This document shows, piece after piece, positions 1 to 46,531 of a stretch of 64,000 nucleotides of DNA (position 1 is its first letter; every line of letters begins with the position of its first letter). Source of the DNA: Nymphaea colorata (lineage: Eukaryota > Streptophyta > Magnoliopsida > Nymphaeales > Nymphaeaceae); NCBI RefSeq assembly GCF_008831285.2, contig NC_045145.1, positions 3,698,723 through 3,762,722 on the forward strand, in the 5' to 3' direction. The translations under genes and the position numbers were made by a program. The notes under the pieces were generated by a model. The model worked only from the letters and a program-made list of their open reading frames with translations. It had not been told where the DNA came from and did not search any database.

Positions 1-1257
1 CTGGAGAACCTGATTCTCGACATCAACCGCAGAGACGACCGGAAGATCACTTGCGTGATCGCAGATGCGCATATGCCGTGGGCGCTCGAGGTAGCCGAGA
101 AGCTAAGCATTAGGAGGGTGGCCTTCTGGCCGGCATCTGCTGCTACCTTCTCAGTCATGGCCAGTATTCCCCGGCTTTTGGAAGAACGAGTCATAGATTC
201 GAACGGTAAGACGTTCAACTCAACCACTTTCATTGGTGTTTAAATTGTAGGTGTTTGGATGCAAGTCTGAAACTAAGTTTTTTCCGTTTTGTTAAAACTA
301 GCATGTTTAAATCAAGTTTTTAAAAATGAAAACCCTTTCAAAAACCTGGTTTATGTTTGAATGACCAAAAATTAAGTTTTTCAACATTGAATAGAGTTAT
401 GTGATAGCTATAACATTAACAGCATTTCCAACTATAAATTTTATTATCTACAGTGTTAACAAATAGGACAGCCTTTTATATTATGTTATCTTGTCTGGCC
501 AAAACTGAGTTGTGAATGAATGATCTAGAAGGGTTCAGGTTTTATATCAAAACTCTGTTTTGTAAAAACCGAGTCTAAAAGAGACCCTGTTTTCATATCA
601 TTCAAACATAGCAAAACTCCAAACCAGGTATTGGTATCGTCCAAACAGCTCCTTAGTTGCTTATTAAGTCTTGTCTTATTTTACTACTGAGTTCTTCACT
701 CTCATTGTCTTCTCTAATTCGCTCACTTATTCTTTCTTTTTATTTTTTTCTTGCAACGACTATAAAAAAAAATTCTTAAAAGGGACTGGGTAATCTCGAT
801 ATTTCACATACAAACATATGCTTATTTTTCTATATTACTTTTCATAACCATTTTTTCACGGACTTGAAGATATTAAAACATGAGTGGGTGATCTCATTTC
901 ATATACCCACATATGTATACAGCCAAAAGTCAACGCCGCTGGCTGAATGACAATTTGTGAATAAATCCATTATAAACAATCATCCATTATAAACAATCAC
1001 CTTATTAGATACGTGGCCAATTTGATGACTGCTTTTTAGTAATAAATGTTTTAAATTTCAACAATTGGACAGCAGTAGGAACATGGCAGCATCTTCTATA
1101 TATATATATAAAGCGAGAGAGAGATAGATATAAAGAGTCTCAAATGTTTACATCAGGTGTGGACATCGGTATGTGTAGATAAATATTTGAGCCTCATTAT
1201 ATCTATCTCCCTCTCGCTTTATATATATATATATATATATATAGCAAAAATAAAAAG

Positions 1258-1294
<37 letters not shown>

Positions 1295-3465: not shown

Positions 3466-4684
3466 AAAAGAACTATTTTGTATGGTTTTTTTTTTTTTTG
3501 GTTAACAATATTCCGCACTTTTCGACAATGAATTTTACATCCCGTGTGGGGTGGAGGCAGGTGAGGGCCATGTGTGGGCAACCTTAAAACTTCTTATTTC
3601 TATATTAATATTTGTGACTTGTTTTTCTCATTTACATATTGGTGCCCTTTAAAATTTAAAACTTTGTACTTAGGGCCTCTTAGCCACTAGCTCTACCCTG
3701 AATTCCGCATGGGTATATATTGACTGTCTGTCCTCCTCGGGTGCCAGTTCTGGCTTTATTTTAAAACTAGAGCTGAGGTTCATTGGTGTTTTTTTACTGT
3801 TAGGGCTAACTTTATTTATCGTAGTATTTTAGTGTGCAGACAAAAACATATATGATTGTTGATTATTTTTCTTATTCTTCCTCATTTTTTGATCTTTTAT
3901 TTCTTTAGCAACCATATTGTCCACCTCAATATTTATGGTTTCCAGTGTCGGTGAGGACTTGAAAAACCAATCTCAAGGAATAGAAGTGGATTGAAGATAG
4001 CGACGAAGGGTGTGGAATCTCAAGAGGTTGGCAGGTAAACCACTCCGTCTTTTCTCCCTTACGTTTTTCTTGTTTTCACATTTCACATCAAATAGATTTA
4101 ACATGGTGGAAGAAGGCCGGAAATCTTTATAATGAACCATTAGATGAATCCAATTGCAGAGATAACGACGAAAGTTATAGCACAAGGTACAAATTGTGAC
4201 TGTCATGACGCAATGCACGACTCTTTTTTGTGGCAAAATATCTCCAAACATGTTCTGTGAACACGAGGAGATAAAGGGCACCAAAGATTACACATGAATG
4301 CTCTTACATTTTGAAAATCGGCAAAGTTCGATTGAAATTTTAGAGTTGGATTTACATATGAATGTAAAAATCGAAATTGGAGTAAGGTTCATAGTGTAGC
4401 TGGTTGAGTTATGGACATGTGAAAAACAGGTTTTTAGTTTGAGTCCAATGAATGCTATGTCTCTGTGTATTAACTAGCAAGGCGTGGTACTTAGGTTGCA
4501 GAATGCACCGCTACCATCATCACTGGCACCGATCATACTCACATGAAAGTAGGTTGTTAACTTCCTACTCATACTCACATGAAAGAGAACGATCACATGA
4601 AACAAAAAAAAAAATGCCAAAAAATATAAAAAAAAATCAATGCATTCACAAGCAATTTATGTAAATGCAGCCGCCTCTTTATTG

Positions 4685-17766: not shown

Positions 17767-18063
17767 ATAAGTAGACAGCCTGCAAACGCGTCTCCACTCG
17801 GAAACTCACCAGAACTCTTGCTTCCAGGTCCAGGATCCACCATGAGCAGCAGTATTAAGCCGCATGTCCTTGTGATTCCCTTTCCATTACAAGGTCATAT
17901 CATGCCCTTAATGGAGCTCTCCCATCGCCTGGCCGGCCAGGGCTTCCCAGTTACCTTCGTCAACACCGAGCACATTCATGAGCGACTGATGGCAGCAGCA
18001 TACCATCGAAAGCCCTCTTCCGACGATTTCGCCGGAAAAATGAAGATGGTTGCCGTTCCTGAT

Positions 18064-18309
18064 TGTAGGATGACTAGCAGGATGGCTACCGAATCAGTTT
18101 GGATTTTGAAGATAAAATCTTCTTTATTAGTCAAGATATTGTTTCCAAATTTTGTTGTAACAAAGAAACCGTTGTAACTCCATATCCCTAAATTTTTGCT
18201 ACCGTGTATATTAGGATGAAAAGTTGTCAATAGCAATACATAGAAGTTACGATTCTTCCAATTGAGTCTCTTCTTCGTCTTCTTCCTTACTGTTATTGTT
18301 ATTTTCTCA
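18064..18309 (+). repeat. Copia 5' LTR (246 bp)
   Basis: TG...CA ends. It is identical to the 3' LTR except for one base (AAATTTTTGC against AAATTCTTGC) and an extra ATTGTT near the end. Confidence 0.95.
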
Positions 18310-18361
18310 GTTTTGTGCCCTGTTTCTCATTCTGCTGTGCCCTGTTTTTTGTCCTGCTCTC

Positions 18362-20951
18362 ATGGCTACTGTGTCGGGTGTTCACAATAATGGTGATGAT
18401 CAAATTGAAGCCAACGCGTCACCCTTTCTCCTGCATCACTCGGATAATCCTGGTGCTATCCTTGTGACCAGTCCTTTAGCCGGTGACAACTATGCAACAT
18501 GGCAGAGGGTCATGAAGATGGCTTTAAGTGCAAAGAACAAATTTGGGTTCATTGATGGTTCCATTCCCAAACCTCCGTTAAACAGTCCAGACTACAAAGC
18601 TTGGATGCGCTGCAATGATTTGGTGCATTCATGGCTTCTCAACTCACTTTCAAAGGAAATCGCTAACAGCGTTATCTATGCCAATGAGGCTCGTGAGGTA
18701 TGGAATGACCTACAAGATCGTTTTTCTCAAGGTAATGCTTCCCGTATTTACCAATTGAGAAGATGGTTTCTGATCTACGACAAGAGCAATATTCCTTACC
18801 AAATTATTTTACTCGTCTAAAGACTTTATGGGATGAAATTGCTTCATATTCTACTGTTCCTACATGCTCTTGTGGTGCTTTTAAAGAGTTTAATTCCTGT
18901 CAAGATCGTGAGAAAGTGTATCAATTTTTTATGGGACTCAATGAATCGTATGGCAACATTAGAAGCCAGATTCTTGCCATAGATCCATTACCCAATATTA
19001 ACAAGGTTTACTCTCTTGTGCTGCAAGAGGAAACTCGGCGACTACTAGTTCCGCAGCTCTTGAGTTCTGAAAATACTGCTTTAGCAGTAAATTTGTTACC
19101 TTCTTATAACAAAAAATTTCTGCCAAGAGGACAGCAGTACATGAAGAACAGGCCACGTCCAAAATGTGACCACTGTGGTCAACTTGGGCATATCCAAGCA
19201 CGCTGCTATGCATTACATGGCTACCCGCCTAACCATCCAAAATCTAAAGCTTCATCTGAAATGGGTAAAGGCGGACACACTCAACATGGATCCTCGGCAA
19301 ATGTCACTACTGCTGCTATAGTTCTCTCTCAGTTGACTGAAGATCAACTCAGCAAATTAACGGCATGGCTTAGTGCTGATGACAAACCTGCTGCCGCAAA
19401 CGTCGCAGGTAAGCATATGCTCAATTCCTCCCATCATTTACCATGGATTATTGATACCGGAGCCTCAGACCATATGACTCCCCAACTTCACTTGATGACC
19501 AATGTCATTCCTCTACCCGAAGTTCGCCTTATTAATCTTCCAAATGGCCAACAACTTTCAGCTACTCATACAGGAACCATAGAACTCCAGCCGAACCTCA
19601 TACTTATAGATGTACTTTACATACCAGAATTTAGATACAATCTATTGTCAATCCCTAAACTCACCAAAACCACTGACTATGCTGCTGTTTTTCTCTCATC
19701 TTGTTGTCTCTTTCAGGACCGTTTGTCGAAGAGGCTGATTGGAGTGGGTAGCTTATGCGGCGGACTGTATCATCTACGATTACCGGCCAGTTCTCATGCT
19801 CTTTCTGTTACTTCCCTTAATAAATCTCATGTTTGGCATATGAGACTTGGACACCCGTCGTTTGACAAAACTCAATCTTTGAATTCTGATGTTCTTATTT
19901 CCAAGCATGAATTTCTATGTGATGCTTGTCATAAAGCTAAGTTCTCTCGCTTGCCCTTTTCTCATAGTAGTAGTAGAGCGAGTTTTCCATTTGCATTACT
20001 TCACTGCGATGTTTGGGGAGGATATGCCACGCCCTCACATACTGGAGCGCACTACTTCCTCACTATAGTTGATGATTTCTCTCGTGCAACTTGGGTCTTC
20101 TTGATGCGTTTTAAGTCTGAAACTTTTTCTTGTTTCACTCGGTTCCATGCTATGGTAGAAAACCAATTTCATACCAAAATTAAATGTCTTCGAAGTGACA
20201 ATGGTTCAGAATTTCTTGCAAATAATATGCAAGAATTTCTTTATATGCATGAGATCGAACACCAAACTTCATGTGTTGCGACACCGCAACAAAATGGAAG
20301 AGTTGAAAGAAAACATCGTCACTTACTTGAAGTCGCCCGAGCGCTTCGTTTTCATGCACACTTACCTATTAAGTTTTGGGGCGAATGTATTTTAACAGCC
20401 ACTTTCTTGATTAATCGTCTCCCATCCCCTATTTTGAATAATAAATCTCCTTTTGAACTCTTGTTTCATAAAACACCCATCTATGAAGATTTGCGTGTAT
20501 TTGGATGTCTATGTTATGCTCGAAATATGAGTGTACACCGAGATAAATTTACCACACGTGCATATAGATGCATTTTTGTAGGATATCCTTCAAATAAAAA
20601 AGGATATAAAGTCTATAATCTTGACTCCAAAGAAATTTTTATAAGTCGCGATGTGGTATTTTATGAAGACCGGTTCCCATTCCAATTTCAAAATGATGAT
20701 GGTTTGAACTCACGTGTGCTGCCAACACCACAAGAAGACTATATGAGTGAAGAAAGTGACTCTCCAATTGTAAGTGTGCCCGAGCCAGCTCCACCAATGT
20801 CGCCATCCATTCCACCTACTCATCTCGTTTCTACTGAACCAGTCAACCATTATAATTCTTCCTTTCATCCCAATCTGAACCCACCATACGAAAATCAAGC
20901 TGCCCAAGACACCCACCTTCATATCTCAATCAGTATGTGTGCTCAAACGTA
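18362..20951 (+). pseudogene. Copia gag, protease and integrase with frameshifts
   Basis: Gag starts at ATG 18362 and shows PFLLHHSDNPGAILVTSPL, GDNYATWQRVMKMAL and NKFGFIDGS. A frameshift near 18770 moves into the downstream frame. That frame has the zinc knuckle CDHCGQLGHIQARC (about 19167-19210), the protease motif WIIDTGASDHMT (19443), a GAG-pre-integrase block (MRLGHPSFDKT, CDACHKAKFSRLPF) and the integrase core (CDVWGGYATP, IVDDFSRATWVF, LRSDNGSEF, ATPQQNGRVERKH). A second frameshift near 20940 ends this piece after NRLPSPI and the Pro/Ser-rich linker. Confidence 0.92.
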
Positions 20952-22795
20952 ATGGTATCAGATCCGCCGCCTAAGGATCCTCACTCCATGACGCCATCTT
21001 CAGGTACACGGTATCCCATTCAAAATTATCTTTACAATTCTAAGTTTTCTCCACAATACTTTGCATTTTTAACCTCTATTTTGAGTGATGCTGAACCTAC
21101 CTCGTATGCGGAAGCGGTGCAACATCAACACTGGCGCCAAGCTATGGCTGATGAGATCCATGCTCTCCAACAAAATACCACCTGGTCCCTTACTACCCTA
21201 CCTCCAAATAAAATTCCAATTGGTTGTCGTTGGGTATATAAAGTGAAACGGAGGTCTGATGGTACCATCTAACGCTACAAAGCCCGACTTGTAGCAAAAG
21301 GGTATACACAAATTGAGGGTATTGATTTTCATGAGACTTTTGCTCTAGTCGCAAAGCTTACTTCCATGAGGACTTTACTTGCGGTTGCTGCAACTCGTCA
21401 ATGGTCCCTATATCAAATGGACGTTAGTAATGCATTCATACAGAATATTCCAGTACGACAAACAGTCGTACTGGAATACTCCCCCTCACGAAGAAGACCT
21501 GGAGGAATGGTCATATAAACTTTTTCGTGCAGCTCCCCATGTATGAATGCATTACTAACGTCCATTTGATATAGGGACCATTGACGAGTTGCATTCATAC
21601 ATGGGGAGCTGCACGAAGAAGTTTATATGACCATTCCTCCAGGTCTTCTTCGTGAGGGGGAGTATTCCAGTACGACTGTTTGTCGCCTCCATAAGTCCTT
21701 GTACGGACTTAAACAATCACCACGTAACTGGTTTCACAAGCTCATGACTGCCCTTAAGGATGCTCATTTTATTCAATCCAATGCAGATTACACATTATTC
21801 ACTCGACACTCTGGAAATCAGTTTATTGTTATCCTAGTGTATGTGGATGATCTTATTATTACAGGAAATGATGAACAAGATATTTCTTCAATCAAGACCT
21901 TCTTACACTCCAGATTCCATATAAAAGATCTAGGAAATCTCAAGTATTTCCTAGGAATTGAGGTTGCTCGAGCGCCATCCGGGATATTTTTAAATCAAAG
22001 AAAGTATGCATTGGTGATTCTTTCTGACGCTGGTCTATTAGGAGCAAAACCAGCCGATTTTCCTATGGATCAAAAATTGAAACTAACTCCAGAAGAAGGT
22101 GAACCGATAAAGATCCAGCTATGTATCGAAGGTTAGTAGGGCGCTTGATCTATTTGACCATTACTCATCCAGAAATAACATATTCAGTTCATACGTTAAG
22201 TCAATTCATGCAATCACCACGACTTCCACATTATGAAGCAGCTCTTCGCATATTAAGATACTTAAAATCATCTCCTGGAAAAGGTATCTTTCTATCATCA
22301 TCTAGTGAAATGCAGTTAAGAGCATATTGTGATTCTGATTGGGCGAGTTGTCCTTCAAGTCGGAAATCAGTAAGTGGTTTTGTGGTTTTTCTCGATAAAA
22401 GTCCAATCTCATGAAAGTCAAAGAAGCAAACTACTGTAGCCAGATCATCCGCAGAAGCGGAATATCGAGCGATGGCTACTGCTGCATGCGAAATTGTATG
22501 GTTGAAGGCACTATTAAAGGATTTAGATGTACACCATCACAAACCAATAAGCCTATATTGTGACAATCGAGCAGCCTTGTATATCTCCAAAAATCCAGTT
22601 TTTCATGAACGAACAAAACATATAGAACTGGATTGTCACTTTGTTCGAGAGAAGGTTCAACAAAAAGTAATTCAACCTCAGCATGTATCCACGTCATTGC
22701 AGCTGGCTGATATTTTCACAAAACCATTGGGTAGGGATATGTTCCAAAGCTTGAAGGCCAAGTTGGGTGTCACAGATCTACACACTCCAACTTGA
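20952..22795 (+). pseudogene. Copia reverse transcriptase and RNase H with stops and an inverted duplication
   Basis: The RT start reads YAEAVQHQHWRQAMADEI and PIGCRWVYKVKRRSDGTI, then a stop at 21270-21272. It continues [19 protein letters not shown] to MDVSNAFI, where an inverted duplication (21442-21591) intervenes. It resumes with LHKSLYGLKQSPRNW and the catalytic VYVDDLIITG box (about 21838). A frameshift near 22110 is followed by RNase H ([49 protein letters not shown]). A TGA at 22412 replaces the expected tryptophan. Confidence 0.92.
21391..21680. repeat. Inverted duplication inside the copia RT region
   Basis: 21463-21591 is the reverse complement of the joined RT sequence found in the left arm (21391-21441, CAACTCGTCAATGGTCCC and onward) and the right arm (21592-21680, CATTCATACATGGGGAGC and onward). 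The word CATTCATAC is shared by both arms at the junction. A further 13-bp pair (ATTCCAGTACGAC / GTCGTACTGGAAT) sits at about 21446-21477. The result is a near-complete palindrome that could fold into a long hairpin. Confidence 0.9.
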
Positions 22796-22802
22796 GGGGG
22801 AG

Positions 22803-23042
22803 TGTAGGATGACTAGCAGGATGGCTACCGAATCAGTTTGGATTTTGAAGATAAAATCTTCTTTATTAGTCAAGATATTGTTTCCAAATTTTGTTGTAAC
22901 AAAGAAACCGTTGTAACTCCATATCCCTAAATTCTTGCTACCGTGTATATTAGGATGAAAAGTTGTCAATAGCAATACATAGAAGTTACGATTCTTCCAA
23001 TTGAGTCTCTTCTTCGTCTTCTTCCTTACTGTTATTTTCTCA
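22803..23042 (+). repeat. Copia 3' LTR (240 bp)
   Basis: It follows the polypurine tract GAGGGGGAG and is followed by the TSD CTGAT and then by UGT exon 1 sequence GGATGGCC. Confidence 0.95.
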
Positions 23043-23107: not shown

Positions 23108-26100
23108 GAGATGCCGGGGCACCTGGAGAACCTGATTCTCGACATCAATCGCAGAGACGACCGGAAGATCACTTGCATCTTCCTTGGTGATCGCAGATGC
23201 GCATATGCCGTGGGCGCTCGAGGTAGCCGAGAAGCTAAGCATTAGGAGGGTGGCCTTCTATCCGGCATCTGCTGCTACCTTCTCAGTCATGGCTAGTATT
23301 CCCTGGCTTTTGGAAAAACAAGTCATAGATTCGAACGGTAAGGCGTTCAACTCAACCACTTGCACTGGTGTTTAAATTGTAGGTGTTTGGATGAAAGTCT
23401 GAAAAAACTTAAACTCCGTTTTGTCAAAACTTTCATATTTAGATGGCAAAGCAAAAATCAAGTTTTTAAAAATGAAAACCCTTTTAAAAACCTGGTTTGT
23501 GTTTGAATGACAAAATTTGAGTTTTTGAATATTGAATAGAGTTATGTGATAGCTATAACACTAACAGCATTCCCAAATATAAATTTTATTGTCTACAGTG
23601 TTAACAAATTGGACAGCCTTTTATATTATGTTATCATATGTGGCCAAAACTGAGTTTTGAATGAATGAAATAGAAGGGTTCAGGTTTTATCTCAAAACTC
23701 TGTTTTATAAAAACCGAGTCTAAAAGAGACCCTGTTTTCATATCATTCAAACATAGCAAAACTCCAAACCAGGTATTGGTATGATGGTATCATCCAAACA
23801 GCTCCAAACCAGGTATTGGTATCATCCAAACAGCCCCTTAGTTGCTTATTAAGTCTTATTTTACAACTCAGTTCCTCACTCTCATTGTCTTCTGCTATTT
23901 TACTATTTATTCTTTCTTTTTATTTTTTTCTTGCTACAACTGTAAAAAAAAAATTCTTAAAAGGAACTGGGCAATCTCGATATTTCACACACACTCATAT
24001 GCCTATTTTTCTATGTTGCTTTTCGTAACCATTTTTTCACGTGATGAATAAATCTATTATAAACAATCACCTTATTAGATACGTGGCCAATTTGATGACT
24101 GCCTGTTAGTAATAAATGTTTTAAATTTTAACAATTAGGCACCATTAGGCACATGATAGCATAAAACTCTTATGTATATATAAAGTTATGTATATATAAA
24201 GTGTTACTGAATTGCTTTAACCATTTATCTATATATCCCGATGTCTCACCAACAAGCTGATGTAAATATTTGAGTCACTCCATAAGGATAGTACCCTTGA
24301 AAAATCGAACTGAGGAATAATATAAGATGCCACCCAACCCGTTGAGTCACCCATCACTTGGTATGAGAGAGGAAAAAAAAGGGAAAGTAATTGATTTTTA
24401 TTAAAAACCCTTCAATAGTCAATTAGTTATCTTAAGACCACTCGGCTTACAAACAAAAATCAAACCTATTAAAATTAATTACAATAATTATGCTTTTTTT
24501 TTAAATCTAATCTTGTAGATATGATCTTAAGAGTGACTCGATAGAAAACATATATTAAATTAGTTATTTTCTTACTTTAAACTGCTCTTATGACATCAAC
24601 ATTTTGGTAGTATAAGCTCAAATTTTTTTACAAAAATGACTTGAACTAAAGCATGATTTATTTTAAATTAGCTTTTACAAACACATTAGATGGCTCTCAT
24701 AGGTTGTTTAACACACATTTTAACATGAATGACAGGTCTGGTTTTTATCCCTTACCCAAGTAATCCGACACCTACCAATCACTCATATATATATATATAA
24801 GTCTTCCATGCGACAAACTTGAACCCAAGTTTGCTCCAATTTCGACATATTGGGAATAAGAGGAGGTCAATTTCCGAACGCTCAATTTACTACTGCTACA
24901 AATCTCCAAAAAACTATCCTAACGCTCTCGCAGCTTCGTGAACCGTTTTCCACATGATTTCTGATAGAGAAGAGGCCTGTACATTTATCTGACACAATGC
25001 CAGCCGTTGACCCTGCTTTATTTGGCTGGCTTCATATCGGAAAGGAAGATGAGAAGGAGATGTTTCAGTATCTTCTAATATGCCTCCAATCAATTCAGGA
25101 CGATCTTGTGTTATGCAATTCCTTTCCTGAGATCGAATTCCTGGCTATCAACCTCATGAAAAATCTCATGCCAATTCGGCCTCTGCTATCACACAACCAC
25201 TTGCAATTTCCCATGCTGTGGACAGAAGATTCAAGCTGTCTTGGTTGGCTTGACCAGCAACCAGCACGCTCAGTCATATATGTTTCCTTTGGTAGCATCA
25301 CCTTACTGAACCAGCACCAACTTCATGAGCTCGCGCATGGACTCGAGCTCACCGGCAGGCCATTCCTCTGGGTCTCTAGGCCCGACCTCATGGATGGGTC
25401 GGCCGCGGTCTACCCAGATGGGTTCGCCAGAATTGTAGCCGCCGGTCACGGCTGCATGGTTGAGTGGGCTCCGCGGAAGGAAGTGTTGTCTCATCCTTCC
25501 ATAATTCCATTGCTTGCTTCTTAACTCACTACGGGTGGAACTCAACCATGGAAGGCCTGTATAATGGCCTTCCCCTCCTATGTTGGTCATACTTTGCTGA
25601 CCAACACTTGAATCAGTACTTCATAGTTGAAGTGTGGAAGGTGGGACTAAGGGTGTCAAAGGACAAGGATGGAGTCGTTAGGAAAGAAGAAATCAAGGAC
25701 AAGCTTGAGAAGCTGCTGCATGATGAAGGAATAAGGATGAGGGCGATGGAGCTGAAGGACATGGCAAGGAAGAATGAGATGGATGGTGGTGATTCCTCAA
25801 AGAACTTTATTACTTTTGTTGATCTCATCAGGTAAAAGAGAACTATTTCCATATGTATGTTTTTCTTTTTGGCTAGTAATATTCCGCTCTTTTCAACAAT
25901 GAATTTTATATCCGAGGGAGGGAAGCAGGTGTGGGCGGGCAACCATAAAAACTTCTTATTTGTATATTGATATTTGTGACTTTTTTTTCTCGTTTACATA
26001 TTAGTGACCTTTAAAATATAAAACTTAATACTTAGGACCTCTTAACGAAGACTTTCTAGGTCTACTCTGAATTCTGGGTGTATAATGACTGTGTATCCTG

Positions 26101-27060
26101 CTCTGGTGCCAGTTCTGGCTTTATTTTAAAACTAGAGCTGATGTTCATTGGTGCTTTTTTACTGTCAGACCTAACTTAACACAAAAACATGTAAGATTAT
26201 TGACTATTTTTCTTCTTCCTTATTTTTTGATCTTTTATTTCTTTAACAACCATATTGTCCACCTCAATATTTATGGTTTCCAGTGTCGGTGAGGACTTGA
26301 AAAACCAATCTCAAGAGGTTGGCAGGTTTTCTTCTCCCCATCTTTTCTGTCTTTTAAGTTTTTCTTGTTATTGCATTTCACATCAAGTCCAATTATTGGG
26401 GGGTAAAGATAGCGACGAAGGGTGTGGAATCTCAAGAGGTTGGCAGGTAAACCACTCCATCTTTTTCTGCCTTACGTTTTTCTTGTTTTCACATTTCACA
26501 TCAAATAGATTTAAAATGGTGGAAGAATGCCGGAAATGTTTATAATAAACCATCAGATGAGACAAAGGTTATATGAGGCGAAGGTTATAGCACAAGGTAC
26601 AAATCCTTTGGTCACTGTCACGACTTAATACACTATTCTTTTATGGCTCCAAACATGTTCTGTGAACATGAAGAGATAAAAGGGTAGTGAAAATTGCATA
26701 CGAATGCTTTTGCATTTTGAAAATTGGTTAAGTTTGGTTGAAACTTTAGATTTGGATTTACATATGAATGTGAAAATCAAAATTAGAGTAAGGTTCGTAG
26801 TGTAGCTGATCGAGCTATGGACATGTGAAAAGCAGGTTTTTAGTTGAGTCCAATGAATGCTATGTATCTGTGTATTAACTAGCAAGGTGTGGCACTTAAG
26901 TTGCAGAATCCATCACTACCATCATCACTGGCGCCCATGCAGATCATGACTCCAAATGCAGGCAATGTGGTAGGCTGTTAACTTCTAGTCACACTCACAT
27001 GAGAGAGAACGATCACATGAAACAGAAAAAAGAAAAATCCTAAAAGTATAAAACCAATGG
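23108..27060 (+). repeat. Segmental duplication unit 2 (partner 1-4650)
   Basis: Exon 1 end, intron, exon 2 and about 1.2 kb of 3' flank of UGT copy 2 match unit 1. Copy 2 carries its own changes: a shorter intron (no SINE, no 1095-1551 repeats) and an extra partial tandem duplication around 26310-26450 (CTCAAGAGGTTGGCAGG twice). The 3' flank 25836-27060 holds no recognised gene. Confidence 0.75.
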
Positions 27061-30389: not shown

Positions 30390-31896
30390 ATGAGCAGCAG
30401 TACTAAGCCGCACGTCCTTGCAATCCCCTTCCCAGCACAAGGCCATATCATGCCCTTAATGCAGCTCTCTCATCGCCTCATCCGCCGGGGCTTCCTTGTT
30501 ACCTTCGTCAATACAGAGCACATTCATGAGCGACTGATGGCTGCAGAACAACCTGGAAAGCCTTCTTCTCAAGATTTCGCCGGAGAAATCAAGTTGGTGT
30601 CTATTCCTGATGGATGTGCTAACGGATCTGACCGGAAGAAGTTCGGCACGTTCAGCAATATCATGCTGAAGGAGATGCCCGGGCCCCTGGAGAACCTGAT
30701 TCTCGACACCAACATCAGAGACGCCCAGAAGATTACTTGTGTGATAGCCGATGTGCATATGTTCTGGGCGCTCGAGGTAGCCGAGAAGCTAAACATTACC
30801 AGGGTGGCTTTCTGGCCGGCATCTGCTGCTACCTTCTCCGTCGTGGCCAGTATTCCCCAGCTGCTGGAAAAACGAGTTATAGATTCGAACGGTAAGAAGC
30901 TCCCATCAAATTTGGGTAGCAAAAATTTGGCAACCAATTTTTCTGCAGATTGAATTGACATCTGAAATCTGAATGTAAGTGCATTACCCATTGCATTTAT
31001 AAGATTAATTTCGGCTTTTCACAGGATTTCTGATAGAGAAGAGACCTGTACACTTATCAGACACGATGCCAGCCATGGATCCTGCTTGGTTTGTCTGGCT
31101 TAACGTCGGACAGGAAAACGAGAAAGAGTCCTTCCAGTTTCTTTTGTTATGCCTCCAATCAATTCGGAGCGATCATATCTTGTGTAATTCCTTTCCCGAG
31201 ATCGAATTCCCTGCGATCAACCTCATAAAAAATGTCATGCCAATTGGGCCTCTGCTATCAGATATGCATTTGCAACCTTCCAAGCTGTGGACGGAGGACA
31301 CGAGCTGTCTTGATTGGCTTGACCGGCAACCTGCTCGCTCAGTCATATATGTTTCCTTTGGAAGCCTCACCTTACTGAACCAGCGCCAACTTCTTGAGCT
31401 AGCTCATGGGCTCGAGCTCACCGGCAGGCCATTCCTCTGGGTTTCTAGGCCAGACCTCATGGATGGGTCACCCGCGGTCTACCCAGATGGGTTTGCCGGA
31501 ACTTTGGCCGCGGGTCGCGGGTGCGTGGTTGAGTGGGCTCCCCAGCAGGAAGTGCTCTCTCATCCTTCTATTGCTTGCTTCTTAACCCACTGCGGATGGA
31601 ACTCAACCATGGAAGGCCTGTACCATGGCCTTCCTCTCCTATGTTGGTCATGCTTTGCTGACCAACACTTGAATGAGTACTTCATAGTTGAGGTGTGGAA
31701 GGTGGGACTGAGGGTGTCAAAAGGCAAGGATGGAATAGTTAGGAAAGAAGAAATGAAGGACATGCTTGAGAAGCTGTTGAAAGACGAAAGAATAAGGATG
31801 AGGGCGATGGAGATGAAGGTCAGGGCGAGGAAGAATGTGATGGAGGGTGGTGATTCCTGGAAGAACTTTACTACTTTTGTGGATCTCATCAGCTGA
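30390..31896 (+). CDS. UDP-glycosyltransferase copy 3 (UGT83A1-like), intact
   Basis: Two exons, 30390-30891 and 31025-31896, join in phase 1 across a 133-bp GT...AG intron to give 457 residues, normal for plant UGTs. The start chosen is ACCATGAGC, shared with copy 2; an in-frame ATG at 30360 is less likely. The N-terminal half has PFPAQGHIMPLMQLSHRL, whose histidine (about residue 19) is the family catalytic base. The C-terminal half has the 44-residue PSPG box at about 338-381 (starts WAPQQEVLSHPS, contains HCGWNSTMEG, ends FADQ), ending in Gln, usually read as preference for UDP-glucose. The enzyme is expected to be cytosolic. The acceptor is unknown. It is the only complete UGT in the window; a TIR element with an EIL fragment lies just upstream. 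Confidence 0.93.
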
Positions 31897-34800
31897 AAGA
31901 GAACTACTTGGGTATGTCTTTTAGGGTTAACACTATACTCTTTCAAGCAACGAAATTTAATTCCAGCATGCAGCGTGTTTGAGTGTTTATGTGTGCCCAC
32001 GCACACACATGTGCATGTGTGCGTATGTGAGTGTGTGTTGTATACATATACCTAATAATATTTTTCATTCGTTTTTCTCTTGTATTGTACCCTCTCATCT
32101 ATTTTCATTTTCTTCCTCATTTCTGCAAACTCAAATGAGAATGCCACTTAGGGAGTTATGCCCTTTTCCCTGCAACGCTAAAAGGGGCCAACGACTGAGA
32201 GAGTGAGTTGCACGCACCACTCACTCAGGTCGTGCAAGACGTGTATGCAAAAAAACTCGAAACAGGGTAAAAGTTGGGGTATTGTGGAAATCATTTAAAA
32301 AGAAATGTCATTTTTAAACTTTTAATTTCTTTAGTTTTCTTTTATATTCCTACAAAAAGTTCTCTTAATATTTTGGTCATTAAGCATATTGGCACACACT
32401 TGTGGGCACATGGTACAATTTCCCAAGGTTAAACAACATGATTTAATGGGGGTTTAATGTTTAGAAACCGATCTGAAAAGGTTGGGTTCAACTAGTTTTA
32501 ATGTTTTATTTTGAGGCAGGTTTCTTTGCCCCAAACTTTTCTGCCTCACCTACTTGTCATTTTCCTTGACATTTCATATCAATTCAAATGATTGGACTTG
32601 CGATAAGTGATTACAAAAAATTTTATGCCCAAAAAAAAAAAAAAACAATCAATCAACGACGCAACCTATTACCTAGAGGAAGATGAAGAAGAGGACAGTG
32701 GAAAAGGAAAGAAAAAAAAACCCAGCAATAGGCTGATGTTCAAGCCTTCGAAGTGAGGCCGGCTCTAATACCGAAGAATCATTAATGCAATTAAGCCCAA
32801 TCGCCCCCAAATAAGGGATTGGGGTCGGCGAAAGGGTTAAAATACAGCCCTCCAAGAGAAAACAAAAATATCAAGACTACCAGGATATTTTCTAATTTCC
32901 AATAAACCCATCTTTAATACTCGTTTCCAACACTCCTTGTCAACAATTCCCCAGCTTCAAGTGTGAGAATTGACCATGTCCATCATGCTCTCGCACTTGT
33001 CAAGACTTTTATTTCTCAAAACCTTGTCAGGTTATCCTGACCAAGGGTGCCACAGGACGCTGCTGTAAGAATTTGCAGTGGTTGAACAAAATCAAGCATG
33101 TATCATTCACTGCACAAATATTTGCTGCAACTGATCTTCAATTTTATACACCCTTTTTCAATCCTGGGATCATCCTACCATATACATTCCTCCTTTCTTG
33201 GGTGCTCCTACAAATGCTTGTGGTGCTCTCTCTGATCTCGATGAAGAAACATGCTGCACAAAGTTGTCATTACAAGTCTTAAACAATGTCCATAAATCAT
33301 CATCACTTCAATATGAATGTGCCAAACATGCAACATATACCATTTGACTATGCTTTTCATTCTGACCCTCATAAAAACATGCCCTAACTACCATCTTGGT
33401 ACCTAATGAAGGGGACAATGTCTCATACGCTCCTTGAGACTCTCCTGTGACTCATGGAACAGATCCCCCTCATAGTATACAAAACTAATTGTGGCTTTTC
33501 TACAGTGATTTGTCCAAATATACTTATGAGGGCATCATGTCCAAAAATAACATGCACTATAGATCATACTTCAACAAATTCATCAATATGATAGTAAGGG
33601 TCTTCATAACTATGTCGATAAAAAGATGGTAGCATTTGTACTGATGATTTGGTTTCATGTTGAGGAGCTCCTACATGGGTTTCGTGATCAGAAATTCCGT
33701 AAGCAGAAATACTCCCTAAGAGATCTAATGTGGCCTTTATAATGGCCCCTCACATGATTATTGTGGTGGTTAGCAATTGGTTAGGTTCTATAATGCTTGA
33801 TAAACAAGGCTTCAGAACTTTCCTACCATTCTTGAGTTTCTCCTTGTAGTCATCTCCTTCCCCTACATGCACTTCGAAGAGGCCAAATAACAATGCAAAA
33901 AGTGCATGTGAACTACCTACTAGAAAAGCTTAAAAGCAACCTAAACTCTCAAATTCCTAGACTAAGAATAATATTTAAGATATTTGCTGCAGAAAGCAGC
34001 CCAGATTATACAAAAAATATCAGACTAGACAAAACAAGGTGCATACTACTCCAACAAGGCTTCCACCTCTTCAAAGGCCTTAATGTGGGACCTGCCCATG
34101 AGGACAGCCCCTATTTTGTCGTCCTTGACCTTCATTTCATGGGCACGCACACGAGGAACACAAAAGACAGATGCCGTGTCTCTCCCTTGATTGTGCAGAC
34201 AAAGGAGAGCATCTCTCTACTGTCCACCACTACTTTCCAAGTTCTAAACACTGTTGGCTGGAGCTTGGTCATGCATTAAATGAAGCTTCACATGGGAAAC
34301 TCATCAGAGAAGAGAGCAGCCTACTATTCTTGACTTCACCAAGTTGTTTAGCCAAAAGAAATTATAACTAATGCAGACTACACAGAAATGGGAGGACCTC
34401 TCCTCCATCTCTCTTTCCCTTTTAAAGCTTGAACCTTATCAGATGTCGCCCTTACAAGCAATTAATGAAGTCCTCCAGCAGCGCACAGATAAAGCTATGG
34501 GACCCACTTATTATGTGCATGATGAAGAAGGGTTTACTTTGCCACCATCTTCTTATCCTAGAAAAGGAGAAGCTGATTGGTTGAGTAATGGGCAACCATT
34601 AATGAAGCGGAAAGGGAGAGTTCATATAAACAAGAAAGACTACCATGCTACCATTTACTAGCACATGGACCTTCCCATGCTATTCGACTGTTATTTAACT
34701 TGAACTCCAACCAAGATGACCACATGCTAAGAAGAGGTTCCACCAATTCCCTTACTAGGAACTAAGTAGTGTGCTCTCTTTTGATTAACCTAACCCGGTT

Positions 34801-37800: not shown

Positions 37801-39240
37801 ATTCAATGCTCTTACCTTTTGAAAATCTTTGGATACAGTTTAAAATTTGGATTCGGATTGTGAAACCAGATCTTGGATTCAGATTCTGATATTTCTTCAT
37901 TGGTACTAAAATTTGAATTCGAATATGACTATGTGAATACCTAAAGAAGCGGATATGGTTAAGAATATATCCACTTTAAATCTAATTCGTTGACATCCCT
38001 CCTTGCAAAGAACATTGCTTAGACAGAAAAGGAAAGACTTAACTTAGCTTCAAAAGCATAATGGCCACTAAAATATAACTGGTATTGTCACACACTCTGT
38101 CTGCCCATCAAACGGGCAAACTTTGCTAAGCCCGTTGGGGAGAGAGTGAAATAATTGCCAAACCAAAACCATGTCATGCATTTGCAAGCTCAGATTTTTA
38201 AAGATCATCCATCTTTGTATTAAATATAAAGCTTGTTAAAGTGAAACCATTCTTGAGAAGCTTTCAAAGTGCACGATAGATTTGATTTACCATCTTCGTA
38301 TGCTTTGAACTGTATAAATAAATTTCATGCTGCAGGTTGACAAGCTAAAAAAAACCATAAATTAATGCCATTTGATATTCATCTCATGAAAAATTTTCAT
38401 TTTCACAAGCATTAGAATTGATATGCTCTATGGGATTGGCTCCAGTAATTAATTTTGATTGGTATTCTGAAGTTGAACTAGGGCTCAAAAATCTAGGAAA
38501 CTTTAATCCATGATGTTTTTGCCCAGTCTTGGTATTTTTATTCCAGCATTAGAATTCCACCTAAACAGCTGGAATTCTTGAGGAAGAGAGGGAGAGAGAC
38601 ATTAGAGAGATGTGATCAAACGTGGCTTAAGTGATAGAAAAATCCAAATCTTGGAGCTCAAAGAAATAATATATTGTATAGTGGTCAAGTATTAAGCAGA
38701 ATATGGACGAATCGTTAATGCTACAGCCAAACACGCAAAGGATGCTTCAATCTCTTTGCGTAAATTAAATGATATTTTCATCATTAATCATATTTTTATC
38801 ATTAATCATACTGACGTACCAAAATTTTATGGCCAACATATGCGTCGCACACAACTCAGGCTGCCAAATGTTAGGGGCAAGCTGCCAAATGTTAGGGGCA
38901 ATCAAACTAAATTGTCTAGGGTAAGGGAATCCTTCAAATCCCGTGGCTTCACTAAACCAATGGCCGTGATTTTCTGATTTTCCATTCAAGCACAAGCTTA
39001 GAAAGGAGTTTGGCTTGATCAGTGACGCAAAGAAAAGAATCTCCAACTGAAACTTGCGCACATATTCGTGGTCGGCTGCAACGCTCAAGATAAGGTTGAT
39101 ATCTGCGGAAAAGGATAGAAACAACGAACCGAATGAGCATATTTTCAAATCAAAAGATATTGTACAACCAGAAAACAATCATCTAAGAAGCAGTAAACAA
39201 GAAAATAAGTAGCTATAAATGAGACAGTCGATGGAAGAAT
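31897..39240. other. Long intergenic region, no convincing gene
   Basis: Mostly AT-rich with no splice-supported coding model. Stretches near 33300-33860 look like decayed retroelement on the minus strand (listed separately). A frame at 36104-36658 stays open for 184 codons but begins with GTG, matches nothing I know and has no visible support. A 21-bp word (GCTGCCAAATGTTAGGGGCAA) is repeated in tandem at about 38860-38901. 34370-34660 contains a short open frame with no known motif. Confidence 0.45.
33300..33860 (-). mobile_element. Probable decayed Ty3/gypsy gag fragment
   Basis: Minus-strand frames show scattered gag-like words in the right order: LPSFYRHSYEDPYYHIDEFVE, then ESLKERMRHCPLH and a following RACFYEG, separated by stops and shifts. 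These resemble the gag pattern of plant gypsy elements (EDPxxHxxEF, ESLxExxxRxxxxCPxH, FYxGL). No pol or LTR was identified nearby. Confidence 0.38.
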
Positions 39241-39244
39241 TGGT

Positions 39245-40985
39245 ATTTCGAGCAGCCACCATAGATATAGGTCTCACAACATGGTGTCCTTCTCTTCTTC
39301 TTCTTCTTTCAGCCCCTACTTTGGTCGTTCTATTGAAAAGAAAAGGTTATCAGACCTCCAGGTAATCAGACGCTCACGCGGCAAAATGGCGCCAGATTTC
39401 TCAACCGAGATGTGATAAAGAATGACCAACCGATGCAGAAACCAGAAGCGGTAGCAGCGCAAATCAGATCATCCGTGTGCTTAGATACCAAAAACGATCA
39501 TGAAACCAAAGGGAAGAAGACATTAACTCTTGTAGTTTCTTGGTCATCGATGATTTATGCGCAGGATTTTGTTAATCATTTGGCCAACATGATTTATTTC
39601 TTACCATTAAAGATCCGTTTTCTTTTAAGGAAGCCAGTGGAGCATAAAGTTTCTTTGATTGTAAACTTGGATCAGTGGCCAGCGGTGCGTCTGTTTCAGA
39701 CCATCGGATCATCTTGACTGTAAACTTGACGATGGGAAGCAAACGGGGAAAGCGAGAGAGAGAAAGATAGAGAAATGCTGGATGATCAATCCCTCCACTG
39801 TATATTCCAGGGTCCTTCGACCATGGGGTCTCCGGAATGCACAGGCGCAGAGCCGAGTTGCCTCACCATGATTCCGGTGGTCACCATGAATCCGGTGGTC
39901 TATAAACGCAGGAGAGAGAGCTGCACCAGAGTGGCAGAGCCACCATAGATATAGGTTTCACAACCTCCTTCTCCTCCTCCTCCTCTTCTTCTTTCTCAGC
40001 CCCTTCTTTGGTCATTCTATTGAAGAGAAAAGGTTATCCGACCACTCCAGGTAATCAGACGCTCACGCAGCCAAATGGCGCCAGATTTCTCAACCGAGAA
40101 GTGATAAAGAAAGACCAACCGATGCAGAAACCAGAAGCGGTAGCAGCGCAAATCAGATCCTCCATGTGCTTAGATACCAAGAACGTCATGAAACCAACGG
40201 GAAGAATATATCTACTCTCGTAGTTTCTTGGTTATCGATGATTTATGCGCATGATTTTGTTATTCATTTTGCCACCATGATTTTTTTCTTTCAATTAAAG
40301 ATCCCTTTTCTTTTACTGAAGTCGGTAGAGCATAAAGTTTCTTGGATTGTAAACTTGGATCAGTGGGCAGGGAGTGCGCCTGTTTCAGACCATCGGATCA
40401 TCTTGATTGTAAACTTGACGATGGGAAGCAAAAGGGAAAAGCGATCTCAGGAATGCTGGACGATCAATCCCTTCACTGTATATTCCAGGGTCCTTCGGCC
40501 ATGGGGTCTCAGGAATGCGCAGGCGTAGAGCCCGAGTTGCCTCACCATGATTCCGGTGGTCTGTAAACGCCGGACAGAGCTGCACCATGATTCCGATGGT
40601 CTGTATATTCTTGCGTTACCAGCAGTTCTTAAGGAGCATCATCTGTCGATGAAACAGCCATTTGAACCACAGCCCTGGTTGGGCAGGCGTCCGACTTAAG
40701 CAAAAACCATGACAAACACCGGCTGTAGATCAGACTCGTGCTGATGCAGAAGACACCACAAGTGGGCCGAATCCCGGCTCGCCACTCCGCTTGGTTGGAC
40801 TGGGGTCAGACTTTGGCTCAAGTTTGGCAGGAAGCTCTCCTTCATCTACAGCAGAACAGAAAGATGGTGCTTAGATACAATGAATTTCAGATGATATTGG
40901 TTAGATTCTTATGCTCCACTGTAACTTGTTTGGATCAGAGGACTTCATGGTTCCCATGCTTGGTTTAACAATCACCTGGTTGGTG
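39245..40985. pseudogene. Mosaic of NAC-gene fragments in alternating orientation
   Basis: Four blocks are related to the NAC gene at 42679-44144. Blocks at about 39250-39775 and 39937-40470 are duplicates of each other (both contain ACCATAGATATAGG, GTAATCAGACGCTCACGC, GCTTAGATACCA) and match, on the same strand, 43480-43960: start of NAC exon 2, the intron and the edge of exon 1, hence antisense. Blocks at about 39805-39935 and 40490-40985 match the 3' part of NAC exon 2 in the opposite, sense orientation (ACCATGGGGTCTCCGGAATGC against the gene's GGCCATGGGTTCTCCAGAGAG; CATCATCTGT, CCCTGGTTGGGC, CTACAGCAGAACAGAAAGATG). No open frame survives. Confidence 0.75.
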
Positions 40986-42403
40986 TGTACATATGCTTCA
41001 TCTTTAAATGTTAGTGCCAAAATTAAGAAGTTTCATTTTGTTTCAAGTGATATATATATATATGTGTGTGTGTGTGTGTATATAGCGAAAAAGGGAGAGA
41101 TTGGTAAATACTTGACCATTTAGGCAAGACACAGCAACTAGACCTACCAAAAATAATTATTAAATCTTTTCTTGCAATCTAACCTTATGATATGACCTCA
41201 AGAGTGATTTAATGGGGAACATGTATTAAGTTAAGTCATTTTACATTTTAATCATGTTTTTTTAATAGTCAAAAAATGAATAGGCATTCTTATGGCTTCA
41301 ACTTTTTATAGTAGGAAAAATCAGCGTTTTTTTACAAAGATAACTGAATTAAAACATGATTACATTGGTTGCTGCTTATGAATACGTTAGGATGTTCATA
41401 ATTTGTTTATAATATTTTTAATATAAAATTGAGAAGTATGGTTTCATCTCTTACGTAGCCTAGTATCACACACGGACATGTATATATAGGGGTGAATTAG
41501 TTCAGTATGTACAAGCTAATAGCTTTATTTAACGGAAAAGCTGAACAACCAGATGGTGTTTGATAACTTCAGTTAAGGCTGATCTGAAATTCATGCTGCA
41601 TGAGTCTCGTTGTTTATAGTTTTGAACAAATAGTGGATCACATGGATCGTCACATTTGTATAATTGTGTTCATTTTGTATTTCCTAGTACTGTTATTCGA
41701 CAAAGGCTTACATATTTTTTCACAGATATTGTTAAATTGTTCATTTGCTTGTGCAAACGACATTTCAAACACAAAGGAAAAATATTAGTCATTTGTAGCT
41801 TTTACTAGAGGAAGACTTGATCAGGGTGCATTTGGAATTGATAAATAGTTAGTAGCCCATTAATGACCAGTTTGGATCTTAAATCTACAAATTTGAGAAT
41901 TCATGCAATCCACTATTTGCCGGATGCGGCATGAATCTCGGATCAGCATCATATCCGAGTCTGAGGCTATCAAACACGACCTGGTTGTTCCACTTTCATT
42001 AGAAGTTAGCAGCGATTTTACTTACTAAACTAATTTTGTTATTTAAATAGTTCAAGAATAATCTGATTATCCCGGCATATATTTTAATTTAAATGGTTCT
42101 CTCTCTCTCTCTCTCTCTTTCAATATATACATATAATTCGACAGGATTTGAAAATAAATGTTCTAACTTTTTGAGGGGATTGAAATAAGAGGCTTAATTG
42201 ACTGATTTATTGGCTGACTAATCCTGATTTAACGATCAAAAGAGTTTGGAAACTGTTGTTGAGGACGACGTGAGCTACCATTCAACAATCACAATATTAA
42301 GAAATCAGTTTATTATGCATGAGTTTATTTTCTCCCAAAAGTGTATCTTCTGAACCAAAAATTTTTGCCTTGGTTGACAGTGGGTTTCATGAAAAAAAAA
42401 ATC

Positions 42404-42446
<43 letters not shown>

Positions 42447-42600
42447 GAGCAGGATGACAATGATCATAAAGTGAATTCATGACTAGTAAAAGAAGGTGCT
42501 TGTCTGTAAATTGTGATGGCTTGAAACAAAATCAAACTTCTTTAATTTGGCTCTAACATCTCATGATGAAAAACAAGTAGATCGTTAAGCCAAGCATGGA
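40986..42600. other. Intergenic DNA with dinucleotide repeats
   Basis: No gene is seen. Microsatellites lie at about 41051-41083 (AT then GT), 42093-42118 (CT) and 42404-42446 (AT then TG). Confidence 0.5.
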
Positions 42601-42678
42601 AATCATGAAGTCCTCTGATCGAAACAAGTTGCACTGGAGCATAAGAGTCTAACCAATATCATCTGAAATTCATTGTAT

Positions 42679-44144
42679 CTAAGTATCATCTTTCTGTTCT
42701 GCTGTAGATGAAGTAGAGCTCCCTGCAAAACTTGTCCCCTTGGCTGACCCCATTTCAACCAAGTCGTGTGGCGAGCTTGGATTTGGCACACTTATGGTGC
42801 ACTCTGGATCATCACGAGTGTGCAGCCGAGGGTTTGTGTTGGTTTTACTCTTAGTCGGAGGCTGGCCCAACCAGGGCAGTGGTTCAAGCCGCAGGTCCGT
42901 CCACAGATGATGCTCCTTGATAACCGGTAATTCGGTGGCGCCGCCACACTCGCCGGCTGGTACAGCTCGGTCCGGCGTGTACGGGACACAGGACTCACGA
43001 GGCCGCCAGGCACCTGTTGTGTTCGTGCTGAAACTCGGTTCTACGCTCTCTGGAGAACCCATGGCCGAGGGCTCTGTCTCAATCTGCTCATCATAATCCT
43101 CCGCCGGATCTTTCCAGTCTAAAAGATCGTCCGACGTAATATCCGGCGAAGATATCGACTGCCCCGCATGACTTGGGGTTGCAGCACTTGCTTCCTGTTG
43201 GATTCCACCACCTTCCGCTTCATCGTCTTCCTGCTTTGCAGCTTCTTCTTCAAAAATCTTGCAGAGTACATAGTTATGGGGCGCGTTGTCCTCGATCGTC
43301 TTCTTGGCAGTGCTCGTCTCAGCATGTTGAGAATCAATGAGTCGGTATTCGTGCATGGTCCAGTTACGGTAGCGTCGGCTCCTTCTCTCGCCGATCTTGT
43401 GGCCTTGTTCGTCAACAATGTCTTCTTGGGGAGCGCTCATCATCCAAAAGCCGTCACCAACTGGTCGATCTGAGGGAATCGGCCCGCTCCCCGGTGGTCT
43501 ATCAATTGGAGAGAAGAAGTACCAGACCTCCTTCTGATTGGGTGTTTTCACTGTAATCAAACGCTTACACATCAACGTGCGAATTTCCATTGCTTAGATA
43601 TCAAGAACGACGAACAGATGCAGAAATCAACCAGAAAATGTAGCTGTGTAGAACTGTTTATTAGGCGTTAGATGTCAAGAACGGTGAAATTAAACCATTG
43701 GCGCCGGAGAAGAGAATGAATTTCTTGTTATCAATGGATTAAGCAAGCGAATTCGTTTATTTTGCCGTGATTTGTTACAACTAATTAACATCAGTCTTCT
43801 TTGCAACGAAGTCAGTGGAGCATGAAGATTCTTCGAATCGACTAACTCAATGACAATTCAGAGAAAGTACAGGTTTACAAAGCATGTTTTATCCGTCTTG
43901 CCTAACTTGATGACCATGGTAAGCAAATTAGTTAACTTAGAGAGTGAGAGGGAGAACCTCGAATGAAGGTATCTGGATCGATGGAGAACATGTCGACGGT
44001 GGGGATGAGGTCGCCGTACTCGGAGTGCAGGCCGTCTGGATCATACACTTTCTTCCGGAGGTAGTAAATCAAGAGACGATCTGCATCGTCGAAGTCGAAC
44101 CTTGCTACCCTTTTTGTTTTGCGGGGCTGCCTTGGTTTCCCCAT
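42679..44144 (-). CDS. Divergent NAC-domain transcription factor
   Basis: Two exons on the minus strand: 44144-43958 and 43550-42679, joined in phase 1 (CGAG|GTTCTC donor, ATTACAG|TG acceptor), giving 352 residues. The NAC domain is recognisable but divergent. After a basic start (MGKPRQPRKTKR), subdomain A is FDFDDADRLLIYYLRKKV (canonical is PPGFRFHPTDEEL). Later come WYFFSP (about 71-76), RPVGDGFWMMSA, NWTMHEYRLI and NYVLCKIFEEE. The C-terminal part is acidic and Ser/Pro-rich, as in NAC activation regions, and has no membrane anchor. It would act in the nucleus. The start is the first ATG of exon 1. The neighbouring fragments at 39.2-41 kb derive from this gene or a close copy. Confidence 0.82.
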
Positions 44145-44150
44145 CCTCAC

Positions 44151-46531
44151 AGCACAGCCAACTGAGAAAGAAGCCCAAGAACGTCAAGATTCAGCCAAAA
44201 CAAGAGATTCGGAAGAGAAATGCTCAGAATGCACGAGAATGTTACATGAGGCGGACTTCAAGTGTCAACGTCCTGGGCTTTGAACCCAGGGCAGTATGAG
44301 GGAGCAGAATTATGGTTTTAAAATTTTGATAAAAGTTAAAATATTATTTTTTTAATTTTTATAATAAAAATTTATGTCTAATTTGTTTGGGAGGGGGCCA
44401 GGATCCTGCCTGCACCTAATGACTCTCCAAATCTGTCGGATATATGAATCGGATGAATGTCCAATTACATGCAAATGTTAGATATCGGTTTTGGATCTTA
44501 TGAATCACATCCAAGACATCCGACCAAACCATTTGGAAAAAATTGAACATAAAAAAATTTGATATCATGATTAAGAAATCAGATCAGATACAAAAAAAAA
44601 ATGACATATGATCGAATTCTATATAAATGGTTGAACTTGAAAAGCCTAGCTCTATCCCAAATTGATGTAAATAGATTGTGATCATTAGATCTTAGTCTTG
44701 TAGGTTTGAACAACTAAAGTAGGAACTTAATTGAAAAAACGGGAAACACTAACAAACAACTTAGATTTTCATTTAGATCCAATATGTCGCTTGGAAGGGT
44801 AAAAATGTCATTTAATCATTATGAAAATGTGTTTCTAAAGAGCAAACTTTCGAGAGAGGTCTACGTTGTTCTATCGATAGTTAATGACTAAAATACCCTT
44901 AGTTCACACGAAAAAAAAAAAAAGCTAGAAAGACATTTTTTTTAATAAATTACCAAAATATTCTTTCCTCCTTACTTACTGTTCAAACTTTCTTTCATTT
45001 AAATGTGCTTCAGCTTATTTTTCACTGCAATAGTTCGTTCGGGTCAGACTGTCCATAAATGTGAGAAACAAATAGGAAGAAAGCCGGTCACCTTATCTCA
45101 GTCCTCTTGTTCTCAAACTAGGCCCTTTCCTTCCCATTAATAAGTAGTCGCAGCTAACATTTTTTATTTTATTTTATAGGTTGAGGAAGATTCATTTTAA
45201 ATTAGGTACTGCATATGGAATGTCATAATAAAGTACCTCTCTTTTTATTTGATAGGTTTTCATAAGAAGCATGAATTACAAAAACATGTTTTTTTTAATT
45301 TTATAAAGAAAAATAGGCATGAAAATAAACATTTTTCTTTTGTTTTCCCGTGCATTAGTGTTTCTCATTTGTATCTTTATCTCACATTGTTTTGGCAGCT
45401 ATTTCATGTCGTGGATTTGGGAGCTAGTGAGGCTAAAACCTGGTTTATTTTGAAAATTTTAGTTTTATATCTAAAATTGTACGAAATTAAGGGGCTTATA
45501 AGAGGGCTACATAACAACTTACTTGAACTAGACTTTTGAATAAGTCCTTAGGAAAATTTGGTTTTATGAAAATCAAGTTTTATGAATACTTGATTAAAAA
45601 CTTAGTTTTTAAAACTTGAACCAAATGTTTCGATGAAAAGAGAAAGAACGTGACAGAGTCTACACTTCAACTGACATTGCATGTTCATCTTTTTCTAAAG
45701 TTTTTACCTTTCTTGAGCTTTTCTCTCAAAAAGAGCATCTATTCTCATTCTCGCATGTTTATTTGGAGGTTGTTTGGCACTGGAAACAAATCGTCAAATC
45801 GTTATTATTCAACAAAAAAGATTAAAGCAGATTCATAAAACCCTTTACATAGTGTTCCATGAATCTATCCCTAATTTTTAGATAGAAATTAAAGCAGATT
45901 CATAAAACCCTTTACATAGACAGTAACAATATGATATGCGTGTCAAATGACCCCTTGAAGCGAGGGACAATGGCATTACCACATATAAGCTTGTGGAAGG
46001 TTTGGAGGGGCACATGCCTCTCCAAGTTACCAAAATTTTATTTTGCAACTTTATCTATATACACATGAGTAACAGTAACTTGTTTCATCTACAAATTGAC
46101 TTATATATTTATGCTCCCCATCACTTCAATTTCTGGCTCTACCTGTCTACCATTATTTGAGGTAAATTGTTTCATAAGCAAGCTTTACTTTGATGAGTTC
46201 TTGTTGGCACGTTGTGCTTAAGCTCTTTTGTAACTTTTCTTGGAACAATCGCAAACAGTGACGTCAAAAAGTGAATGGGATCAATTAGCTAGACTGCCGA
46301 TTTAATGATGGATTGAATTTAATTGAATCAATTAGGAATCAACATAAAACTTTAATACATATGTTTCTAGAAAAGAAAAGTATATAAGCTACGTATATTT
46401 CTAGAAAAGAATATATAAGAATAATACAAAGGGAAAAAAATTAGAAAATCTTAAAAAAATAATGAAAATGAATAATAGACAGGTTGAACCCTTAAATGAG
46501 GTCGACTTGTCACTTACAACTCGTTACAATA

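Follow-up and report, generated by a model that had tools for sequence, protein, structure and literature searches.

Alternating sense and antisense NAC fragments beside a NAC-family gene in Nymphaea colorata: a probable rearranged pseudogene

How do antisense and sense pieces of one gene come to alternate beside a whole-looking copy of that gene, and could such an arrangement act on its neighbor? The question is raised by a locus in Nymphaea colorata (RefSeq assembly GCF_008831285.2, contig NC_045145.1), in a window of 64,000 nucleotides, the whole stretch of DNA that was analysed (positions 3,698,723 to 3,762,722, forward strand). A sequence-only reading of this window had described an array of NAC-derived blocks at 39245..40985 and suggested that read-through RNA might seed small RNAs against the NAC gene at 42679-44144. 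Judged from the DNA, the array (39254-41047) is most probably a dead NAC copy that was mirrored, partly inverted and then tandemly duplicated. It is most likely of an ordinary kind, i.e., a decayed NAC duplicate that was rearranged later.

The NAC-family gene and the blocks beside it

The NAC transcription-factor family is known only from plants. The gene next to the array is predicted as follows.

42679..44144, minus strand: NAC-family gene, from splice sites and a joined open frame; 366 aa
44144-43958, minus strand: exon 1, predicted
43957-43593, minus strand: intron, predicted; 365 bp, GT-AG
43592-42679, minus strand: exon 2, predicted

With the predicted exons joined, the protein matches Pfam NAM (PF02365) with 43.4 bits against a cut-off of 27 bits (E 5.6e-11; profile 4-122 of 122). 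Its residues 83-183 find PDB chain 1ut4_A (NAC019) as the best PDB match (E 1e-8), and all four distinct PDB sequences that match at E up to 1 are named NAC or NAM. Carrying the NAM domain by which the family is recognized, the gene is plausibly a divergent NAC gene; "intact" here refers to its open frame and its canonical splice sites, nothing more.

Seven stretches were compared with 42480-44250 on both strands, with 100 dinucleotide shuffles each. The blocks thus compared are these.

39309..39764, minus strand: A1, antisense block; matches NAC 43479-43956 (61.7% of 520 columns)
39808..39929, plus strand: S1, sense block; matches NAC 43076-42957 in exon 2 (64.9% of 131 columns)
39996..40432, minus strand: A2, antisense block; matches NAC 43479-43927 (62.4% of 489 columns)
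40486..41047, plus strand: S2, sense block and left arm of an inverted duplication; 3′ part of exon 2, stop region and 3′ flank

No shuffle (0/100 per block) equalled the score on the matching strand. This was the same strand for A1 (39254-39765; score 224, shuffle maximum 72) and A2 (39938-40446; 199, maximum 74), and the opposite strand for S1 (39766-39937; 68, maximum 52) and both parts of S2 (S2a, 40447-40600, 73, maximum 42; S2b, 40601-41050, 514, maximum 60). On the other strand, the scores were reached by 53 of 100 shuffles for A1 (score 50), 47 for A2 (52), 11 for S1 (39), 49 for S2a and 48 for S2b. The start of S2 (40486-40587) aligns with NAC 43076-42958 at 64.5% of 121 columns. Both the NAC origin of the blocks and their antisense, sense, antisense, sense order are borne out by this comparison of the two strands, in which neither a single orientation nor background-level similarity was seen.

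The earlier description of the antisense blocks as the 5′ half of the gene holds for the orientation, but the matched part is mostly intron. By coordinates, 364 of the 478 NAC bases matched by A1 (76%) are intron and 114 are exon 2. Exon 1 did not reach significance in the tails of the A blocks (three stretches, both strands; best same-strand and opposite-strand scores reached by 88 and 71 of 1000 shuffles, respectively), and about 400 bp of exon 2 (NAC 43077-43478) is absent from all best block alignments. The sense end of the array extends beyond the stop codon to 41047 rather than closing at 40985. Neither flank (38500-39253 and 41080-42300) scored above shuffles against the NAC locus. The possibility that each tandem unit begins with a sense tail was considered and dropped: taken by themselves, 39938-39972 and 39245-39280 score as expected by chance (168 and 725 of 1000 shuffles), and although just 2 of 1000 shuffles equalled 39905-39965, this stretch takes in S1 itself.

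Tandem units, mirrored 3′ ends and the origin of the array

Two kinds of duplication can be recognized in and around the array, one in tandem and one inverted.

39254..39937, no strand assigned: tandem unit copy 1 (A1 + S1); 39254-39882 aligns with 39938-40561
39938..40561, no strand assigned: tandem unit copy 2 (A2 + start of S2), from the alignment to copy 1
42520..42930, minus strand: 3′ coding end of NAC with its 3′ flank, forming the right arm of the inverted duplication
41495..42035, no strand assigned: imperfect inverted repeat within the spacer (the inner repeat); its arms are at about 41495-41665 and 41881-42035

The two aligned stretches of the tandem units are 88.05% identical over 636 columns and collinear across the junction between A and S blocks. 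The main paired repeats of the array are spaced 678-689 bp from start to start, in agreement with the period of about 685 bp noticed earlier for the first pair; pairs of one short family (D6) are spaced 661 bp. Since the units are 88% alike through the A/S junction and only 62-65% like NAC outside the 3′ end, the junction predates the tandem duplication. Moreover, with both units collinear across it, a single inversion and a subsequent tandem duplication give the observed layout. The earlier argument that simple tandem duplication does not give this layout is therefore right for a unit of single orientation and wrong for an already inverted composite unit, as the junction is common to both units. 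An exotic-looking alternation of sense and antisense can hence come from two ordinary steps.

The 3′ end of the array mirrors that of the gene, tail to tail: S2 (40625-41047) aligns with NAC 42924-42520 at 79.2% of 424 columns (E 5.4e-106). Within the spacer, the inner repeat pairs 41495-41601 with 42035-41924 (70.1% of 117 columns, E 1.7e-8; inverted-repeat families I5 and I6). The spacer halves 41080-41775 and 41776-42500 match with a score of 155, compared with a maximum of 111 in 200 random sequences, which here and in the folding tests were drawn from dinucleotide frequencies and are not exact shuffles. All six control regions stayed inside their own random range. By coordinates, the inner repeat and the NAC mirror have nearly the same center, at about 41763-41784, which points to an original inverted duplication.

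We suggest three steps. The NAC gene would have undergone an inverted duplication; the 5′ part of the left copy would then have been inverted in place, and exon 1 and the middle of exon 2 lost; and a unit of about 685 bp would finally have been duplicated in tandem, leaving an array copy that presumably has no function of its own. The 5′ part of the array (start of exon 2 plus intron) is indeed reversed relative to its 3′ part. The ancestral state would have been a continuous palindrome, the spacer between the arms now being not recognisably mirrored. A palindrome running through the present spacer was tried as a candidate and rejected (41050-41500 against 42040-42520, score 63; random mean 55.7, maximum 83). 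TA/TG microsatellites at 41050-41079 and 42399-42446 lie close to the two inner ends of the arms, on the same strand although the arms are inverted. They match each other and are treated as simple repeats. The A blocks would be the left copy's own, although a third NAC copy on the minus strand could have supplied them instead of an in-place inversion. Left of the array, the score for a mirrored NAC upstream region was reached by 37 of 100 single-base shuffles.

The array combines homology that includes the intron, retained in both A1 and A2, with a disabled frame, since the coding remnant of S2 is broken by a stop and shifts frame (tblastn matches in frames 2 and 3). These are the properties of a duplicated NAC pseudogene and, because intron sequence is kept, the array is not a retrocopy. 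The divergence of the pieces by 12-38% would argue against an assembly artefact. Duplicated (non-processed), rearranged pseudogenes of gene families occur in plants. The array resembles them in its kept intron, its broken frame and the whole-looking paralogue that adjoins it; it differs in being partly inverted and in that its inverted and non-inverted parts were duplicated in tandem as one unit. Among the publications listed, titles and the first lines of abstracts give no account of this locus, which does not imply its absence from print.

Gene-fragment capture by a transposon, e.g., a Pack-MULE or a Helitron, can also give shuffled gene pieces with introns, and both the mixed orientation of the blocks and the retained intron would suit such an origin. 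Every recognised piece, however, traces to a single gene, and at its 3′ end the array is a mirror of the neighboring NAC gene. A comparison of the flanks as inverted repeats gave one match (39116-39152 with 41580-41618) that just 2 of 100 single-base shuffles equalled, but it lies away from the array ends and is one of four such comparisons of the left flank; the other three were reached by 70, 79 and 5 of 100. The 2/100 and 5/100 results may be chance. The direct flank comparison gave a score reached by 75 of 100 shuffles. Capture is very unlikely, and a decayed duplicate is preferred.

Possible small RNAs from the blocks and from the mirrored 3′ ends

Silencing of the NAC gene by the antisense blocks of the array can hardly be credited. 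The orientation of the A blocks fits such a model, and of 1336 21-mers taken from the array (39245-40600, plus strand) 22 can pair with the NAC intron at up to three mismatches; the count is 1 at up to two mismatches and 52 at up to four. To the predicted NAC mRNA, in contrast, none of the 1336 is complementary at up to three mismatches and 2 are at up to four. Between 39254-40600 and 42500-44200, the longest exact match is 12 nt on either strand. The predicted fold of the array is also no stronger than that of random sequence (z 0.1 and −0.5; a rough z, from eight random sequences each). With the match mostly to the intron, no 21-mer among the 1336 that pairs with the mRNA at up to three mismatches and a chance-level fold, the array is an unlikely source of small RNAs directed at the gene; on unspliced NAC RNA, a weak effect is conceivable. 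The idea of silencing by read-through RNA complementary to the 5′ half of the mRNA finds no support, as intron makes up 76% of what A1 matches and no 21-mer fits at up to three mismatches.

If there is a silencing structure at the locus, the better candidate is the adjoining tail-to-tail mirror and not the alternating blocks. From the DNA alone, the mirrored 3′ ends of S2 and NAC could form a young source of hairpin RNA or siRNA: a transcript reading through the spacer would make a long foldback and give rise to small RNAs matching the 3′ coding end of NAC and its 3′ flank. The longest exact run between the arms is 36 nt, and 23 of the 430 21-mers of 40601-41050 occur exactly, in the same sense, in the predicted NAC mRNA or 3′ flank; these shared 21-mers sit within 40840-40905 and match 42648-42713. 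The stretch 40600-42940 is predicted to fold with z −14.5 (plus strand) and −17.3 (minus strand), compared with −4.0 and −3.7 for the spacer alone (41060-42400), all z values being rough and from eight random sequences each. Base pairs that span more than 1 kb number 356 on the plus and 393 on the minus strand, so that a long foldback between neighboring inverted copies, as expected of an inverted-duplication small-RNA locus, is predicted. Identity is raised around the stop, at 40843-40982 (127/139 compared with 218/268, p 0.008), though this stretch was picked after the alignment had been viewed.

The hairpin route, however, requires a transcript across a spacer of about 1.5 kb, whole-arm identity is just 79%, and Rfam gave no matches at the gathering threshold on 38000-45000. 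The plus strand of S2 alone is sense, and none of its 430 21-mers is complementary to the mRNA at up to four mismatches. To yield small RNAs directed at the gene, transcription would have to cross the spacer or read the minus strand of S2. Taken together, a hairpin or siRNA source in the mirrored ends is unlikely, if clearly less so than silencing by the alternating blocks. A more specific version is less likely again: one arm of a young NAC hairpin locus would be the 3′ end of the regulated gene, whose own read-through transcripts would silence it, and the raised identity at the stop codon and in the 3′ flank would reflect selection or gene conversion acting on the small-RNA region.

Excerpts of PMC8195341 and PMC1790633 treat young MIRNA loci that arise by inverted duplication (the model of Allen et al. 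2004) and miRNAs derived from pseudogenes. Going by these excerpts, the NAC locus resembles young plant MIRNA and siRNA loci of inverted-duplication origin in having two adjacent, convergent gene segments of protein-coding origin. It differs from them in its spacer of about 1.5 kb, its 79% identity and the fact that one of its arms still is the gene.

Other features of the window

Three further features were seen away from the NAC locus. At 18061-23036 lies a Copia-type retrotransposon with direct repeats of 237 bp (18061-18297 and 22800-23036) that are 99% alike and enclose reading frames with integrase, Pol_BBD and RVT_2 domains; it looks like a recent insertion.

A UDP-glycosyltransferase-like stretch is present in three direct copies (2557-3490, 24947-25856 and 30988-31922; 86-90% identical in pairs). 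The Pfam scan covered the first and the third, and found UDPGT in reading frames of both. They belong to a larger, broken direct duplication (1-4631 and 23123-27053).

Finally, a reading frame on the minus strand at 29226-30044 matches the EIN3 DNA-binding domain twice, each time in part (Pfam E 3.9e-13), and is possibly a gene fragment.
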